Assembly: GCA_023248995.1 (NCBI GenBank)
Contig: JAHFDN010000006.1
Location: 1-64,000 of the forward strand
Length of the DNA: 64,000 bases
From: Candidatus Rokuibacteriota bacterium
GTDB lineage: Bacteria > Methylomirabilota > Methylomirabilia > Rokubacteriales > CSP1-6
Reading direction: 5' to 3'
The notes below the pieces were generated by a model. That model saw only the letters and a program-made list of their open reading frames with translations, ran no database searches and was not told where the DNA came from. Numbering within the stretch: position 1 is the first letter of the stretch; each line of letters starts with the position of its first letter. This document shows, in pieces, positions 53,697-62,069 of this stretch. Position numbers and translations under genes: made by a program.

Positions 53697-54264
53697 ACCC
53701 TCGCGGGCCGGGACACGGGCGGCCCCGGTTCCGGCCCCCCACCCCCCGGCGGCCTCGCGGGCGCCCGAGGGGGTGCGGCTCGGGCCGCTCGACGGCGAGA
53801 CGGAGGATGCGCGACGGCTCTTCAGCTATGCGGGGGCCGGGATGCCGGCGGCCTCGCCAGGCGAGTTCGGATGGGGCGCCTGGATCGGAGAAGGAAGTGA
53901 GGGCCGCCGTCTCATCGGCGCGGTCCTGCTCGAAAGCACGGGCGCGACCGGTTTCGTCCACGGGCCGGTAGTCGTCGTCGACCCGGGCCTTCCTCAAGAG
54001 GTCGAGCCCGTCGAGATCGCCGCCCACCTCCTCGCCGCTCTCGTCCCCCACGCGACCGCGAGCGGCATCGACACGCTCTTCGCGCGCCCCCAGGGCCTGG
54101 ACCGGGTGTGGGTGCGCTTCGGCTTCATCCCCGTTCCGGAGGCGGACCTCCCGGCGGCGTTCAGACGGCGGCCCGGAACCGGGCTCTTCGCGTGGCGAGG
54201 CGGGACGGCGCTCTGGTCGTCGCGCCGGCGGGCGAAGGACGGCGCCGCCGAGCCTCGCCCCTGA
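53683..54264 (+). CDS. Hypothetical protein, possible GNAT-like fold
   Basis: Conserved position inside the cof cluster; ALVPHATASGIDTLFARPQGLDRVWVRFGFIPVPEADLP resembles an acetyltransferase tail; start uncertain. Confidence 0.4.
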   Translation: MGRSKPSRAGTRAAPVPAPHPPAASRAPEGVRLGPLDGETEDARRLFSYAGAGMPAASPGEFGWGAWIGEGSEGRRLIGAVLLESTGATGFVHGPVVVVDPGLPQEVEPVEIAAHLLAALVPHATASGIDTLFARPQGLDRVWVRFGFIPVPEADLPAAFRRRPGTGLFAWRGGTALWSSRRRAKDGAAEPRP

Positions 54265-55190
54265 TGCGCGTCACCGCGCTCGCCGGGGGAACGGGCGCCG
54301 CCAAGTTCCTGCGAGGGCTGACGGCCGTCATCGCCCCCGAGCAGGTCACGGTGATCGGCAACACGGGCGACGACGCGCTCATCTGGGGTCTCCACGTCTC
54401 GCCCGACCTCGATACCGTCATCTACGCCCTCGCCGGTCTCCTCGACGAAAGCAAGGGGTGGGGAATCCGCGGCGACAGCTTCCGCTGCCTGGCGGCCATG
54501 GCCACCCTCGGCCGGGAGACGTGGTTCAACCTGGGCGACCGGGACCTGGCCACTCACCTCTTCAGGACCGAGCGCCTCCGCACGGGCGAAAGCCTGAGCC
54601 AAGTGACCGACGCCCTCCGGCGCACGTTGGGCGTCGGCAGCCGGATCCTCCCGGCCTCCGACGCCCCCGTCAGCACCCGCATCCTGACGCCTGAGGGCTG
54701 GCTCGGCTTTCAGGAGTTCTTCGTCCGGGAAAAGGCTCGGCCCGAGGTCCTCGACGTGGCCTACGCCGGGGCCGACCTCGCCCACCCGGCTCCCGGCGTG
54801 CTGGAGGCCATCGAAATGGCCACGGCGATCCTCGTCTGCCCGTCGAATCCCATCACGTCCATCGGGCCGATCCTCGCCGTCCCCGGCATCGTCGACGCGC
54901 TCGGCGCCGCGCGCGGAGAGATCCTGGCCATCAGCCCGATCGTCGGGGACGCCCCCGTGAGCGGTCCGGCGGGGAAGCTGATGGCCGCCCGAGGGCTCTC
55001 CGTGTCCGCGACGGGCGTCGCGCGCTTCTATCGCCCGTGGCTCGATACGCTCGTCCTCGACCGCCGGGATGAAGCGCTCCTCTCCTCTCTCCAGGAGCTC
55101 GGCGTGACGCCGGTGCTCGCGGACACGCTCATGACCGATCGGGAGAAGGCCGAAGCCCTGGCGCGGCGCGTGCTGGAGCTCCTCACGTGA
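54264..55190 (+). CDS. cofD: 2-phospho-L-lactate transferase CofD
   Basis: VTALAGGTGAAKFLRGLTAVIAPEQVTVIGNTGDDALIWGLHVSPDLDTVIYALAGL; CPSNPITSIGPILAVPGI. Confidence 0.96.
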   Translation: MRVTALAGGTGAAKFLRGLTAVIAPEQVTVIGNTGDDALIWGLHVSPDLDTVIYALAGLLDESKGWGIRGDSFRCLAAMATLGRETWFNLGDRDLATHLFRTERLRTGESLSQVTDALRRTLGVGSRILPASDAPVSTRILTPEGWLGFQEFFVREKARPEVLDVAYAGADLAHPAPGVLEAIEMATAILVCPSNPITSIGPILAVPGIVDALGAARGEILAISPIVGDAPVSGPAGKLMAARGLSVSATGVARFYRPWLDTLVLDRRDEALLSSLQELGVTPVLADTLMTDREKAEALARRVLELLT

Positions 55191-55837
55191 CGACGGTCGC
55201 GGCCGTCCCCGTCAAGGACCTGGACAACGCCAAGCAGCGGCTGATCCCGGTTCTGTCGCCCGCCGAGCGCCGAGCCCTGGCCCAGGCGATGCTGGAAGAC
55301 GTCCTCGGCGCGCTCTCCCGCGCGGGGCTCGACGCGGTCTGGGTCGTCACCCGCGACCGGGAGGTCGTGGAGCTGGCGCGCCGCTTCGCCGTGACGATCC
55401 TGGAAGAGGCGGAGAACCGAGGCCACACCGAGGCCGTCACCCTTGCCCAAGCCCAGGCGACCCGAATGGGCGCCGACCGGTTCCTCACGATCCCGGGAGA
55501 CGTCCCGCGGGTCACCGCCGACGAGATCCGGGCCGTGTGCCGGGTCGCCGAGCCGGGGCGGTCGGCGGTCTTCGTCCCCTCGCGCTCCGGCTTCGGGACC
55601 AACGCGGCGCTCTTGTCCCCGCCCGCCGTCATGCCCTTCAAGTTCGGCGAGCCCTCCTTCGCGAACCACCTGAGCGCGGCGAGGACGCGGGGACTCGAGC
55701 CCCGCGTCCTCGAGCTGCCGGGGCTCGGCCTCGACATTGACGGCCCCGAGGACCTCACGACGCTGGCCACCGGGCCGGATGGGACGGAGAGCGCGCGCCT
55801 GCTCCGCTCCTGGGGCTTCCCCCGCCGCCCGGCATGA
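55187..55837 (+). CDS. cofC: 2-phospho-L-lactate guanylyltransferase CofC
   Basis: AAVPVKDLDNAKQRLIPVLSPAERRALAQAMLEDVLGAL; IPGDVPRVTADEI. Confidence 0.93.
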   Translation: MTTVAAVPVKDLDNAKQRLIPVLSPAERRALAQAMLEDVLGALSRAGLDAVWVVTRDREVVELARRFAVTILEEAENRGHTEAVTLAQAQATRMGADRFLTIPGDVPRVTADEIRAVCRVAEPGRSAVFVPSRSGFGTNAALLSPPAVMPFKFGEPSFANHLSAARTRGLEPRVLELPGLGLDIDGPEDLTTLATGPDGTESARLLRSWGFPRRPA

Positions 55838-56586
55838 CGCCGCGCTACGAGATCATCGGGGTCGTCGGCCTGCCCGAGATCCGGACGGGGGACGACTTGG
55901 GTCGCCTCATCGTCCTGGGCACCGCCGCCCAGGCCACGCCCCTCAGGGACGGAGACCTGCTCGTCGTCAGCCAGAAGATCGTGTCGAAGTCCGAGGGGCG
56001 GGTCGTCCGCCTGGCGGACGTGACTCCTTCAACCGCGGCGCGCGCCATGGCGCGCGAGCTCGGCAAAGACCCGCGGTTGGTCGAGCTGATTCTCGGGGAG
56101 TCACGGCGGGTGGTGAGGATGGACAAGGGGGTGCTGCTCGTCGAGACCCACCACGGCTGGATCTGCGCCAACGGCGGCGTGGACCAGTCCAACGTGGACC
56201 TGGACGCCGCCTCCCTGCTCCCGGAAGACCCCGACCGCTCGGCCCAGCTCCTCCGCGAGCGCGTCCACGGGCTCACCGGGATGGATGTCCCGGTCATCGT
56301 CTCGGACACCTTCGGCCGGCCGTGGCGGGAGGGCCTCACGAACGTCGCGATCGGGGTCGCGGGCCTCCAGCCGATCCGGAGCTACATCGGCGTCCGGGAC
56401 CCGGCGGGGCACACGCTCCAGGCCACGCTCCTGGCCCTGGCCGACGAGCTGGCGGGCGCGGCCGAGCCGGTCATGGGGAAGCTCAGCCGGATCCCGGTCA
56501 CGATCGTCCGCGGCCTCGCCTTCGAGCGCGCCGAGCAAACCTCCAAGGCGCTCCTCCGTGATCCCTCGCGCGACCTATTCCGCTAG
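55834..56586 (+). CDS. cofE: Coenzyme F420-0:L-glutamate ligase CofE
   Basis: LPEIRTGDDLGRLI...DLLVVSQKIVSKSEGRVV; ICANGGVDQSNVD; PVIVSDTFGRPWREGLTNVAIGVAGLQPI. Confidence 0.95.
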   Translation: MTPRYEIIGVVGLPEIRTGDDLGRLIVLGTAAQATPLRDGDLLVVSQKIVSKSEGRVVRLADVTPSTAARAMARELGKDPRLVELILGESRRVVRMDKGVLLVETHHGWICANGGVDQSNVDLDAASLLPEDPDRSAQLLRERVHGLTGMDVPVIVSDTFGRPWREGLTNVAIGVAGLQPIRSYIGVRDPAGHTLQATLLALADELAGAAEPVMGKLSRIPVTIVRGLAFERAEQTSKALLRDPSRDLFR

Positions 56587-56589
56587 GGT

Positions 56590-57960
56590 ATGATGGGGCC
56601 TCAGCGGACAAGGGCTATGCAGAGACGCTACCTCCCCCTGATCGTCCTGTCGGCGTGGCTCACCGGCTGCAGCGCCGCCGCCACCGTCCCGTCCACCGTC
56701 TCCAACGACACGGGGCTCCCTCCGCCCACCCGCCAGGTGCTTGCCAACGGCATGCGCCTGATCGTCCAGGAGCATCGGGCGGCGGACATCGTGGCCCTCT
56801 ATCTCTTCGTCGCGGTCGGCGCGCGCGACGAGGGGCCGACCGACCTCGGCTTCTCCCACTTCCAGGAGCACATGGTCTTCAAAGGCACGGACACCCAGGG
56901 GCCCGGCTTCGTGGATCGCGCGGTGGAGGGCGCCGGGGGCAGATCGGACGCCAACACCTCATTCGACTATACCTTTTATTCCCTCGTCCTCCCGACCAGC
57001 GAAGCGTCCCACGGCATCCAGATCCTGGCCGACATGGCGTTCCGCTCGAAGTTCGATCCCGTGGAGATGGCCCGCGAGCGCGACGTGATCCTGGAGGAGG
57101 CGCGAGTCGAGCAGGACTCCCCCGACACAGCGCTGACCCGGGGACTCAACAGGCTCGTCTTCCGCGATCATCCTTATGGCCGCTCCCTCTTGGGCAGCGA
57201 GGCAACGCTGAAGGGGGCGACGCGTGAGAGACTCCTCGCCTACTACAGGCGCCACTACGTGCCGGACCAGATGACCCTCGTGGTCGTCGGTCCGGTGGCG
57301 CCGAGACACATCGAAGCCGCCGTGCAGGACACCTTCGGCCGCATCCCGGCCGGCGGTCACAGACGGGCTCCCCTCGCGGCGGCGCGCCCGCTGACGGACG
57401 GCACGCGCCAGGACGTCGAGCGGCCGGAGCAACAAGCCTATCTCGCCCTGGGCTGGCGCGCCCCGAGCACGAGCGATCCCGACGGCTTCGCCGTAGATCT
57501 CCTGGCCACCATCCTGGGGGGAACGGAGAGTTCCCGTCTCGCCCAGACGCTTCGAGACCGGGACCAGCTCGTCGCACGCATCACGATGGACTACAACTCC
57601 CTCGAGGCGGGCGGCGTCGTGAGCATCAAGGCCAAACTCGAAGCGAAGGACCTGGACAAGGTCCAGCGCCTGATCCTCGACGAGATCGCGCGCATCCAGG
57701 AACACGGAGTGACCGAAGACGAGCGCGAGCTCGCGCTGACCACGTTCGAGGCTTCACACGCCTTCGACACCGAGACCGCGGAAGGACTCGCGTACGCCTA
57801 CGGCCTCGCGGAGACGACCTGGACGCTCGAGGCAGAGCTCATGTACGTCAAGCGCCTCCGGCAGGTGACCCGGGAGCAGATCCAGGACGCCGCGCGCCGG
57901 TTCCTCTCCCGGACCGACTACGCCCGCCTGGCGTTCGTGCCCGCGCGGAAGAGCCGGTGA
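56590..57960 (+). CDS. M16 family zinc peptidase (catalytic subunit), lipoprotein signal
   Basis: LTGC lipobox; HFQEHMVFKGT (HxxEH) with downstream ILEEARVEQD glutamate. Confidence 0.93.
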   Translation: MMGPQRTRAMQRRYLPLIVLSAWLTGCSAAATVPSTVSNDTGLPPPTRQVLANGMRLIVQEHRAADIVALYLFVAVGARDEGPTDLGFSHFQEHMVFKGTDTQGPGFVDRAVEGAGGRSDANTSFDYTFYSLVLPTSEASHGIQILADMAFRSKFDPVEMARERDVILEEARVEQDSPDTALTRGLNRLVFRDHPYGRSLLGSEATLKGATRERLLAYYRRHYVPDQMTLVVVGPVAPRHIEAAVQDTFGRIPAGGHRRAPLAAARPLTDGTRQDVERPEQQAYLALGWRAPSTSDPDGFAVDLLATILGGTESSRLAQTLRDRDQLVARITMDYNSLEAGGVVSIKAKLEAKDLDKVQRLILDEIARIQEHGVTEDERELALTTFEASHAFDTETAEGLAYAYGLAETTWTLEAELMYVKRLRQVTREQIQDAARRFLSRTDYARLAFVPARKSR

Positions 57961-59270
57961 TGCGACGACGCCCGATGGCCTGGTCGCTGGCCGCGACGCT
58001 CCTCCTGGGGTTGGCGGTGCCCGCGGGCGCCGCGGACGCCGGGGCGATCGCCCGAACCCGGCTGGCCAACGGCTTCACCGTCCTCGTCCGCCCGAACCCG
58101 GCGGCTCCCGTCGTCGCCATCTCGCTGGGGATCCGCATGGGAACGCGCTGGGAGACGCCGGAGACGGCCGGGATTTCGAATTTCCTCCAGCTCATGGTCG
58201 TGCGGGACACCGCTTCGCGGAGCGGAACCCAGATCGTCCAGGAAGCCGAGCGGCTGGGAGGCCAAATCGACGCCGTGGCAGACCAGGACTGGTCCGAGAT
58301 CTCGGCCACGGCGCTCTCCCGCAACTGGAAGGCCATCCTCGAGCTGGTCGCTGACGTCGCCCTTCATCCGACGCTGGCGGATAGCCTCGCGGACAGCATC
58401 AAGGAGTTCGTGCTCCGGCAGATTCGGAATCGCGGCGATCAACCATACGCCGTCGCGGTGGACGCGCTGACGCAATCACTCTTCGGGCAGCATCCCTACG
58501 CGTGGAACCCCCTCGGGAGAGGGCAGAGTGTCGAACGCATAGACCGGACATCCCTTCTCGCCCACTATCGCCGCCATTACGTCCCGGGTGGGATGGTCCT
58601 CGCGGTGAGCGGACGGGTGCGCACCCCGGAGGTCGTCGCGGAGGCCGAGCGGCTCTTCGGCGGCATGCCGGTGGGACGACCACCGTCGGCAACCACTGCC
58701 ACCCCGCCGCCCGTCGGGGCCACCCGCCTTGAGAGCGAGGTGCCGGGCGCCCAGGCGCAGATCCTCATGGGGGCGCTGGCCCCGCCCTTCATTCACCCCG
58801 ACTACCCCGCGACGAAGGTCCTCAGCACGGTGCTCGGCGGTGGCATGGCCGGCCGCTTCTTCTCGGAGCTCCGCGACAAGCAGGCGCTCGCCTACTCCAC
58901 GCGGGCGCTCTACCCGTCGCTCACTGACACGGGCTACTTCGTGGCCCAACTGGGCACGGCGCCGGAGAATCTGGCCCGCGCCGAGGCGAGTCTCAAGAAG
59001 GAGCTGGAGCGGATCCGGGAGGAGCCGCCCTCGGCCGAGGAACTGCGCGTGGCCAAGGCGTACCTCCTGGGGAACCTGGCCATGGACCGGCGCACCAACG
59101 CGCGCCAGGCCTGGTACCTCGCCACGTTCGAGCTGGCGGGGGTGGGCTACGAGTTTCTCGACCGGTACACGGCCGCCGTCGGAGCCGTCACGGCCGCCGA
59201 CGTCCAGCGCGTGGCCCGAGCCTATCTGAAAACGATGCGGGAGAGCGTGGCGCGCCCCCCGATCCGTTGA
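57957..59270 (+). CDS. M16 family peptidase-like protein lacking HxxEH (non-catalytic partner)
   Basis: M16 fold (TRLANGFTVLVRPNPAAPVVAISLGIRMGTRWETPETAGISNFLQLMVV) with NFLQL in place of HxxEH. Confidence 0.88.
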   Translation: MMRRRPMAWSLAATLLLGLAVPAGAADAGAIARTRLANGFTVLVRPNPAAPVVAISLGIRMGTRWETPETAGISNFLQLMVVRDTASRSGTQIVQEAERLGGQIDAVADQDWSEISATALSRNWKAILELVADVALHPTLADSLADSIKEFVLRQIRNRGDQPYAVAVDALTQSLFGQHPYAWNPLGRGQSVERIDRTSLLAHYRRHYVPGGMVLAVSGRVRTPEVVAEAERLFGGMPVGRPPSATTATPPPVGATRLESEVPGAQAQILMGALAPPFIHPDYPATKVLSTVLGGGMAGRFFSELRDKQALAYSTRALYPSLTDTGYFVAQLGTAPENLARAEASLKKELERIREEPPSAEELRVAKAYLLGNLAMDRRTNARQAWYLATFELAGVGYEFLDRYTAAVGAVTAADVQRVARAYLKTMRESVARPPIR

Positions 59271-59289
59271 CCCGCATCGTGGGCGGAGG

Positions 59290-60861
59290 ATGCGAATGCT
59301 CAAACGACTGACGTGGACCCTGGCTGTCCCGGCGCTCCTCTGGCCGCTCCCGGCGGCCCTGGCCGATCAGCCCGTGCAGGTCCAGGAGCTGGTGCTCCGC
59401 GCCAAGCCGGCCGTGATCCTCGTGACCGCCCGGGTGGACGCCGAGGTGACGCTCAGCTGCGGCGGTGGCCCGGTGACGGTCAAGCCCTCGCCCTTCCTGG
59501 AAACGGGCACCGGCTGGTTCGTCGACGGCCGGGGCTACCTGATCACCAACGCCCACGTGGTGGACCCGGTCCATCGGATCCCGCCGTGGGTGATCCACGA
59601 ACTCAAGCGGAGCGCGGTGGACGAGGCCTGCGTCGATCCGGTCCTCATGAGGCAGGGGCTCTCGCGCGGCCAGCGGCCGGAGGCCGAAGACCAGGTCCGG
59701 CGGCGGGTGGACATGGCGAGCATCAGGGTGAAGCCTCTCCCCCGGCTGACCGTGCTCCTGTCCAACGGCACCGTGCTCTCGGCGGAAATCAAGAAGTTCA
59801 GCCCGCCGCTTTTGCTGGACGTCGCCGGGAAACCCGTTGCCGATGCCGGGCGCGACCTGGCGCTGCTCCGCGTCAAGGACGGCGTCTACCCGGCGTTGGG
59901 CCTTGCCCACGAGGAGGCCAAGATCGGAGACCCCCTGCACATCCTCGGGTTCCCGGGCGTCGTGCTGAGCCACGAACTCCTGAACAAGAGCGCGGCCCTG
60001 GAAGCCTCGGTCACCGGCGGGAGCGTCTCCGGCTTCAAGATGGACGCGCTCGGCCAGGACGTGATCCAGACCGACGCGCCGGCCGCCCCGGGCAACAGCG
60101 GCGGCCCGGCGGTCGGCCACAGTGGCGACGTGGTGGGCGTGCTGACCTTCGTGTCGCTCTCGCCGTCGGGGGGGAGCATCGTGCAGGGGTTCAACTTCCT
60201 GATCCCGACGCGGGACATCAAGAAATTCCTCGAGGGGACCGAGGCCACCAAGCTCGGCGAGAGCCGCTTCAACCCCGTCTGGGCCGCCGGCATCCGGGAC
60301 CTCCTGGACGAGCGCTACAGGAGCGCCGCGGCAAGGTTCGCCGAGGCGGACGCCCTCCTGCCGAACCTCGTGGACGTCAAGCGCGCGCGCGCCGAGGCGG
60401 AGTTCAAGGTGAAGAACCCGCCCCCGCGGCCGTTCCCGTGGGCGTGGATCGCGATCGGGCTCGCGCTGATGAGCGGCGGCGGCTACGGCGCCCTGTGGTG
60501 CCGGCGCTGGCAGCGCAACCGCTTCCGGATCAAGGCCGGGGAGGTCGTCCGCTTGCTCGAGGAGGGAACCAATCCGCTCCTCCTTGACGTCCGCAAATCG
60601 TCGGCCCAGAAGACGAGTCCGCTCAAGATCCCCGGGGCCGTCTCCATCACACCGGAGGCGCTCGAGTCCGGTGAGACGGGGATCCTGGTGGAGCCGGAGC
60701 GGATCGTCGTCGCCTACTGCTCCTGAACCGACGAAGCCACGAGCGCCCGGGTGGCGCAGCAGCTTCGACGGGTCGGCTTCAAGGACGTGAGAATCCTCAA
60801 GGGCGGCCTCGGCGGCTGGGCGAACGCGGGGCTCCCGCTCGAGTCGAGGCCGGGCGGCTGA
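59290..60861 (+). CDS. Putative selenoprotein: trypsin-like serine protease - TM - rhodanese domain; UGA 60724..60726 read as Sec (U479)
   Basis: Protease triad regions ITNAHVVDP, GRDLALLRVKDG, GNSGGPAVGHSG; TM PWAWIAIGLALMSGGGYGALW; rhodanese NPLLLDVRKSS...VVAYC-S-U-TDEATSARVAQQLRRVGFKDVRILKGGLGGWANAGLPLESRPGG. Frame stays open past the TGA for 44 codons of clear rhodanese homology to a TGA at 60859..60861. Confidence 0.82.
60732..60767 (+). promoter_or_regulatory. Putative bacterial SECIS hairpin of the selenorhodanese gene
   Basis: CGAAGC/cacga/GCGCC-[CGGGU]-GGCGC/agca/GCUUCG; apical loop starts 21 nt after the UGA and carries G at position 2. Confidence 0.65.
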
Positions 60862-60872
60862 TCGGGAGCCCG

Positions 60873-62069
60873 ATGGGGGCCCTCAACGGCGTCAAGATCC
60901 TCGAGCTGGCCCGCGTCGCGCCGGCGGAGTTCTGCACGATGCTCCTGGCCGACATGGGCGCCGACGTCCTGAAGCTCGAAACCCCACCCGCCGACGGCCA
61001 GGCCGAGACCCCCGAGGAGAAGCGCCGGGCGGCCTTCGCCTACGTCAACCGGAACAAGCGGAGCCTGGCGCTGAACCTCAAAGCGCCCGAGGCGCAGGCG
61101 ATCTTCCAGACGCTCGCCACCACGGCCGACGTCGTCGTCGAGGGCTTCCGCCCGGGAGTGATGAAGCGGCTCGGCGGCGATTACGAGACCATCCGCAAGG
61201 TCAACCCGCGCGTCATCTACTGCTCGCTCTCCGGCTTCGGGCAGAACGGCCCGTACAAGGACTACCCGGCCCACGACCTGAATTATCTCTCGCTGGCGGG
61301 CGTCCTGGGGCTCATTGGAGAGCCTGACAGGAAGCCCGCCATCCCCCTGAACCTCGTCGCCGACTACGGCGGGGCGAGCCTCCACGGGGCGCTGGGAATC
61401 GTGCTCGCGCTGTTCGCACGCGAGCGGACCGGCCAGGGCCAGCAGGTAGACGTGGCGTACCTCGACGCCACGCTCTCCCTGCTCGGGGCCACGCCGAACC
61501 TCCGCTTCTTCTGGAGCGACGGCCTCGCGCCGCGCCGGGGCGCCGGCTTCCTCGGCGGCTCCTACCCCTACTACGCCGTATACGAGACCAAGGATCGAAA
61601 GCTCCTCAGCATCGCCTGCACCGAGCCCTGGCTCTGGGAGAACTTCTGCAAGGCGATCGGCCGGCCCGAGTTCGCCAGGTACAGCCGCGTGGCCGACCAG
61701 TTCGTCCGCGCCGCCAACCCGGAGGAAGTCCGGGCGCGCGAGGAGGTCGAGGCGATCATCCGGACCCGGACGCGCGACGAATGGTACGAGGACCTCGTCA
61801 CGCGAGACGTCTGCGTGGGGAAGGTCTACGATGTGGAGGAGGTCTTCGAAGACCCGCACATTCGGGCCCGCCAGATGCTCGTGGAGACCGAGCACCCGGA
61901 GATCGGCAAGGTCAAGGAGGTCGGCATCGCGATCAAGCTGTCCGGCACCCCCGGCGCGGTCCGCGGCGCGGCCCCCTACCGGGGCGAGCACACCGACCAG
62001 GTGTTGCGCGAGCTCGGGATGAAGCCGGAGGAGATCCGGGAGCTCCGCGACAGGCGCGTGGTGGCGTAG
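60873..62069 (+). CDS. CaiB/BaiF (family III) CoA-transferase
   Basis: GVKILELARVAPAEFCTMLLADMGADVLKLETP; NRNKRSLALNLKAPEAQAIFQTLATTADVVVEGFRPGVMKRLG; GFGQNGPYKDYPAHDLNY. Confidence 0.95.
   Translation: MGALNGVKILELARVAPAEFCTMLLADMGADVLKLETPPADGQAETPEEKRRAAFAYVNRNKRSLALNLKAPEAQAIFQTLATTADVVVEGFRPGVMKRLGGDYETIRKVNPRVIYCSLSGFGQNGPYKDYPAHDLNYLSLAGVLGLIGEPDRKPAIPLNLVADYGGASLHGALGIVLALFARERTGQGQQVDVAYLDATLSLLGATPNLRFFWSDGLAPRRGAGFLGGSYPYYAVYETKDRKLLSIACTEPWLWENFCKAIGRPEFARYSRVADQFVRAANPEEVRAREEVEAIIRTRTRDEWYEDLVTRDVCVGKVYDVEEVFEDPHIRARQMLVETEHPEIGKVKEVGIAIKLSGTPGAVRGAAPYRGEHTDQVLRELGMKPEEIRELRDRRVVA

Follow-up and report, generated by a model that had tools for sequence, protein, structure and literature searches.

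A gene in the analysed window, a 64,000-nucleotide stretch of a Candidatus Rokuibacteriota genome (contig JAHFDN010000006.1), almost certainly encodes a selenoprotein in which a protease, a transmembrane (TM) helix and a rhodanese domain are joined in one chain. By sequence, it has an intact catalytic triad and a CxU pair (Cys and selenocysteine, Sec, two residues apart), has paralogues with a cNMP-binding domain and is linked to a pair of M16 peptidase genes. The source assembly comprises 2.34 Mb in 57 contigs and is 97% complete. The features of the gene are as follows, with residues numbered from the ATG at 59290, so that Sec is residue 479:

59285..59289, + strand: Shine-Dalgarno sequence GGAGG, favouring ATG 59296 over ATG 59290 (sequence)
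59290..60861, + strand: selenoprotein gene, HtrA-like protease / TM / CxU rhodanese (translation, Pfam, alignment of relatives)
59296..59364, + strand: predicted N-terminal signal sequence, hydrophobic stretch at residues 7-25 (hydropathy)
59380..60231, + strand: HtrA/DegS-like serine protease domain (Pfam, relatives, AlphaFold2, Foldseek)
60268..60414, + strand: three helices linking protease and membrane, residues 327-375 (AlphaFold2 model)
60439..60519, + strand: single TM helix within residues 384-410 (hydropathy, AlphaFold2 model)
60538..60825, + strand: rhodanese domain, residues 417-512 (Pfam, relatives)
60718..60720, + strand: Cys477 codon, Cys in 80 of 83 relatives
60724..60726, + strand: codon 479, TGA, read as selenocysteine (translation, relatives)
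60743..60757, + strand: SECIS apical hairpin GCGCC-CGGGT-GGCGC, 16 nt after the TGA (comparison of relatives)
60859..60861, + strand: true stop codon, TGA (translation)

Translation confirmed the observation behind the original prediction, namely that the gene stops at a TGA in the rhodanese loop and that the same frame resumes for 44 codons. It reads ...RIVVAYCS-U-TDEATSARVAQQLRRVGFKDVRILKGGLGGWANAGLPLESRPGG*, with the in-frame TGA (60724-60726) two residues after the rhodanese Cys and directly after the Tyr-Cys-Ser of the loop, followed by 44 further codons up to the TGA at 60859-60861. Counting Sec, this gives 523 codons from 59290 or 521 from 59296, plus the stop; as GGAGG adjoins ATG 59290 without a gap and ATG 59296 has a spacing of 6 nt, the in-frame ATG at 59296 is the likelier start. 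A standard gene finder ends the gene at TGA 60724-60726. Were this TGA an ordinary stop, the product would end at Ser478, within the active-site loop, and the tail would be a remnant or a separate piece; the gene finder's call agrees with such a stop, as does the use of UGA as a stop in this organism (the window gene itself ends in one).

To place codon 479 among homologues, 83 relatives were aligned, all from one phylum (families f1 and f5); the full-length ones with the TGA include proteins with as little as about 35% identity. Of the 83, 46 have TGA at this codon, the remainder having Ser (29), Thr (5), Cys (2; L080 and L108) or Glu (1), so that both Sec and Cys occur at this site in homologues of the fusion. 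A second Cys had been expected at the UGA site, an expectation that fits few of these proteins: the relatives mostly have Sec, Ser or Thr, and Cys is found in only 2 of 83, with CxC also present in a Burkholderia DedA-rhodanese. The TGA recurs in many independent assemblies, and the relatives continue past it into the rhodanese tail. Comparison of the window gene with six close relatives yielded dN/dS values of 0.06-0.21 over the 40 codons that follow the TGA, indicating purifying selection, and amino-acid changes are fewer there than over the 40 codons that precede it. With the window protein as query, a match was obtained in 57 of 57 genomes of the family (E below 1e-20 in 55). The fusion was found in families f1 and f5, both of this phylum; a scan of genome contigs matched five Rokubacteria only, and in a tblastn search of plasmids either the protease or the rhodanese was matched, each separately and in part, with no full-length fusion.

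The sequence after the TGA contains a hairpin of the form GCGCC-N5-GGCGC, which starts 16 nt after the TGA, just 3' of the UGA and with a G in its loop, in 46 of 46 TGA genes. When synonymous codons were redrawn from each gene's own usage, the hairpin arose in 8.4% of draws, or 3.8 of 46 genes expected, and a chance hairpin in GC-rich DNA was therefore rejected; the 46 genes are related and so do not amount to 46 independent trials, yet they extend to family f5, where identity is about 35%. The Sec copies encode Ala486 only by GCC and Ala489 only by GCG, which does not hold for the non-Sec copies, and the full stem is present in only 3 of the 37 non-Sec copies. Two of these three are the Cys copy L108 (TGT) and the Glu copy L065 (GAA), which look like recent losses of Sec with the hairpin retained. 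In L065 (genome G036) the hairpin is still intact, and its Glu codon may reflect either such a loss or an assembly difference. The same hairpin is found in the DedA-rhodanese selenogenes of these genomes, with a compensatory C-G to G-C change in L147 and L152 that counts as one event because both belong to the same genus; within the protease family there is no covariation because the stem is invariant. An Rfam search of the region gave no SECIS family match.

Sec decoding machinery is present in the source genome, which contains tRNA-Sec (anticodon tca), selA, selB and selD, with selA and selB adjoining tRNA-Sec on contig 51. Both selB and the tRNA, on which the original prediction depended, are thus in place, and selB was found in 52 of the 57 genomes of the family. 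The selD gene (L113, contig 22, 271492-272433) has an in-frame TGA of its own and is probably itself a selenoprotein gene. Given its recurrence in relatives, the hairpin that follows it and the selection acting downstream, the TGA at 60724-60726 is not a chance occurrence, and a pseudogene or an assembly error is ruled out on the same grounds. Together with the Sec machinery, these findings make an ordinary stop extremely improbable and strongly support the gene's assignment as a selenoprotein, in which the UGA would be decoded as Sec via the bacterial SECIS hairpin directly downstream. As the standard reading frame stops inside the active-site loop, such genes need re-annotation.

To define the parts of the protein, Pfam was applied and an AlphaFold2 model was built from 34 sequences. 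Pfam matched Trypsin_2 at residues 73-284 and Rhodanese at residues 417-512, the second match spanning the TGA, and the model (mean pLDDT 86.7; pTM 0.68, which leaves the packing of the domains uncertain) contains the protease, three helices, the helix at 384-410 and the rhodanese. The proposed fusion of a serine protease, a TM helix and a rhodanese is therefore borne out by Pfam, the model and the relatives. Its description as trypsin-like held for the triad, which is intact (His89, Asp189 and Ser270, invariant in 81 of 81), but the best Foldseek matches of the model are DegQ, DegS, Deg1 and HtrA proteases, including HtrA1, making the domain HtrA/DegS-like and not a generic trypsin. While the protein has a chymotrypsin-fold domain with His-Asp-Ser, Pfam found no PDZ domain in it or in the scanned relatives, and its TIGR02037 score of 61.5 lies below the family cut-off of 416 bits. 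His89 and Asp189 (59554-59856) are about 100 residues apart, with a helical insert between them. Cys57 and Cys114, invariant like the triad, may form a periplasmic disulfide, and the linking helices at 327-375 could conceivably be TPR-like. Directly after the hydrophobic part of the TM helix, from residue 405, lies the Arg/Lys cluster RRWQRNRFRIK. By the positive-inside rule, a basic cluster after a TM helix marks the cytosolic side, from which we infer that the rhodanese is cytosolic; the protease is predicted to be periplasmic, anchored in the inner membrane. This predicted arrangement is the one first proposed, with the protease outside and the rhodanese inside.

The rhodanese loop of the window protein reads Y476-C477-S478-U479-T480-D481-E482, so the translation contains the anticipated Cys-x-Sec motif, with Sec two residues after the Cys. 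PF00581 matched in 34 of 34 proteins scanned, in keeping with a rhodanese fold that carries the loop Cys. At the +5 position, the place of the canonical Arg/Lys, the protein has Glu482, which is invariant (83 of 83), and the CxxxxR/K pattern of canonical rhodaneses is therefore absent. In canonical rhodaneses, the basic residue of the loop binds anionic sulfur donors; with an invariant Glu in its place, thiosulfate transfer is unlikely. In 34 of the 37 non-Sec members, the Sec site is occupied by Ser or Thr and so offers no second thiol; sulfur transfer across the membrane, part of the original prediction, is likewise unlikely given both observations. In three relatives (L036, L116 and L117), Asp replaces the rhodanese Cys (YDT) with the protease triad intact, leaving a loop incapable of thiol chemistry.

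These features bear on whether the rhodanese is a working cytosolic sulfur/selenium enzyme, tethered to the membrane and not regulating the protease, for example a persulfide carrier or reductase in which CxU resolves a persulfide on Cys477. Protease and rhodanese could then serve the same process, such as the handling of oxidised or persulfidated envelope proteins. The loop Cys is retained in 80 of 83 relatives, and a CxU/CxC loop is likewise present in DedA-rhodaneses, which have no protease, so the domain can work without one. The invariant Glu482, the prevalence of Ser/Thr among non-Sec members, the three losses of the Cys and a sister group's gain of a cNMP domain, likewise on the cytosolic side, all argue against a working enzyme, which we consider unlikely.

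The sister group is distinguished by a long C-terminal tail, found in 32 members. All 32 have Ser or Thr at position 479, compared with 1 of 49 short copies, an association that represents one or two evolutionary events and not 32. In the members scanned with Pfam the tail is a cNMP_binding domain; it contains a conserved phosphate-binding cassette (GEMALFR..RSA), and a confident model of a cNMP-tailed copy displays a beta-roll and a C-terminal helix (pLDDT 83.2, pTM 0.54). In this group, Ser/Thr has replaced Sec and a cNMP domain has been added to the same protease. Most genomes of the cNMP group carry selB, and several also have a Sec-type paralogue; an origin of the Ser/Thr forms from loss of Sec decoding was rejected because selB is present in the same genomes. 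Sec-decoding genomes can thus contain close paralogues of both kinds, with Sec or with Ser/Thr plus cNMP, a natural experiment in which the contribution of Sec is directly testable.

Trees of the whole protein and of its two halves were built by a quick method. Genus g19 (L069 and L119) combines the rhodanese-cNMP module with another protease backbone: the tree of the protease half rejects placing it in the cNMP clade (p-AU 3.7e-6), while that of the rhodanese half supports this placement (99.6), a disagreement that implies at least one exchange of modules between paralogues. For the rhodanese half of the window clade itself, both groupings are allowed in the tree test.

The selenoprotein gene is closely flanked by the following genes:

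56590..57960, + strand: M16 zinc peptidase with an HFQEH motif, the active partner (Pfam, synteny, sequence motif)
57957..59270, + strand: second M16 peptidase, lacking the zinc motif, ending 19 nt before the selenoprotein gene (Pfam, synteny)
60873..62069, + strand: CoA-transferase family III, 11 nt downstream of the selenoprotein gene (Pfam; same order in three relatives)

F420 cofactor genes (CofD-like and F420-0 glutamyl ligase, 54258-56586) lie just upstream of this cluster, and the order CofD, F420 ligase, two M16 genes, selenoprotein gene, CoA-transferase is kept in the window genome and in G046, G037 and G038. In the other Sec clade, an M16 pair is nearby but divergent in most loci examined. 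The same genome contains a second protease-TM-selenorhodanese paralogue on contig 39 (L061:1497-3137), also with an M16 pair nearby. M16 peptidases occur as active/inactive pairs, and the window pair, with HxxEH in the first member and not in the second, resembles these; a functional link between the pair and the HtrA-like protease in the envelope is plausible.

Such linkage to a periplasmic-type M16 pair would suit signalling from the outside in, whereby periplasmic proteolysis or envelope stress alters the rhodanese (or, in paralogues, the cNMP domain), and DegS, one of the nearest proteins of solved structure in the fold comparison, is a stress-sensing regulatory protease. However, cNMP-binding domains usually serve as inputs, not outputs, and no downstream cytosolic effector was seen conserved beside the gene in all clades; we regard this direction as quite improbable.

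The C-terminal module varies while the protease triad is invariant, and we therefore favour a regulatory reading, in which topology, signalling direction, redox chemistry and substrates are all inferred. The product would be an inner-membrane HtrA/DegS-type protease with a periplasmic catalytic domain, in which the place of the usual PDZ regulatory domain would be taken by the linking helices, the single TM helix and a cytosolic rhodanese with Cys-Ser-Sec. Cys477 and Sec479 would act as a fast thiol/selenol switch. By forming a selenenylsulfide or a persulfide, this switch would register the redox or sulfane-sulfur state of the cytosol and adjust the protease's activity or assembly. The three copies with Asp for Cys477 count against such a switch. 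That a cytosolic switch of this kind controls the periplasmic protease has, in our estimation, a little under an even chance of being correct, and the inside-out direction is a guess. In the sister group, with the same protease, Ser/Thr at the Sec site and a cNMP domain, a cyclic nucleotide would provide the input. More tentatively, these proteins may be transmembrane signalling proteases of a new class, with a Cys-Sec rhodanese switch, in which sister paralogues swapped in a cyclic-nucleotide sensor on the same scaffold. If the mechanism is true, cytosolic selenium chemistry would be tied to periplasmic proteolysis.

Several known systems resemble parts of this protein. Predicted selenoproteomes in this phylum are very large: PMC13188914 cites a Methylomirabilota MAG for which 63 selenoproteins were predicted. 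Predicted selenoproteins annotated as 'Trypsin-like serine protease' and 'MucD' were reported from marine data in the GOS survey (PMC2398784); their Sec lies within the trypsin-like domain or in CxxU (MucD), and no rhodanese is described. The multidomain rhodanese selenoprotein TsoB (NF045694), which is rhodanese/DsbD fusion-like, differs in having two Sec (UxxxxU), a DsbD-like partner and no protease, and the window protein scores only 12.7 bits against its model. DedA-rhodanese fusions share the order of a membrane part followed by a rhodanese, the CxC/CxU-P-N/D-E loop and, in Rokubacterial copies, the same SECIS, but have a DedA membrane protein in place of the protease and single TM helix. 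Examples are Burkholderia WP_258285231, a Cys counterpart with a YCACPNE loop, and a copy on contig 25 of the source genome (L062:1162-2106), which has an in-frame TGA (YCV-U-PNE; YCVUPNE when read through) and the same SECIS; a further 20 stretches of the family's genomes contain TGA copies, and no description of a DedA selenoprotein was found in the literature searched. HtrA/DegS proteases (TIGR02037, TIGR02038; DegS structures) share the catalytic fold, the triad and a membrane-anchored periplasmic protease, whereas the window protein lacks PDZ, has a long helical His-Asp insert with the invariant Cys114 and a C-terminal TM helix and rhodanese, and falls far below the family cut-offs. No paper describing a protease joined to a Sec-rhodanese across a membrane was found in the literature searched, although a groundwater MAG study outside the search (ref. 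66 of PMC13188914) might list such proteins. The CxU rhodanese is itself among the listed subfamilies of selenoproteins ('form 3', NF041203, rhodanese_LYCAU; PMC13188914 Table 1; PMC9312934), with Sec two residues after the rhodanese Cys. NF041203 is the best NCBIfam match of the window protein, which has the CxU motif but scores 72 bits against a cut-off of 115 (an f5 member scores 67 and a DedA-rhodanese 85.5 bits). The subfamily model is a 126-residue rhodanese, whereas in the window protein the rhodanese forms a single chain with an HtrA-type protease and a TM helix. Since the CxU rhodanese is already listed, the claim of a new selenoprotein architecture stands, within the literature searched, for the protease-TM fusion only.
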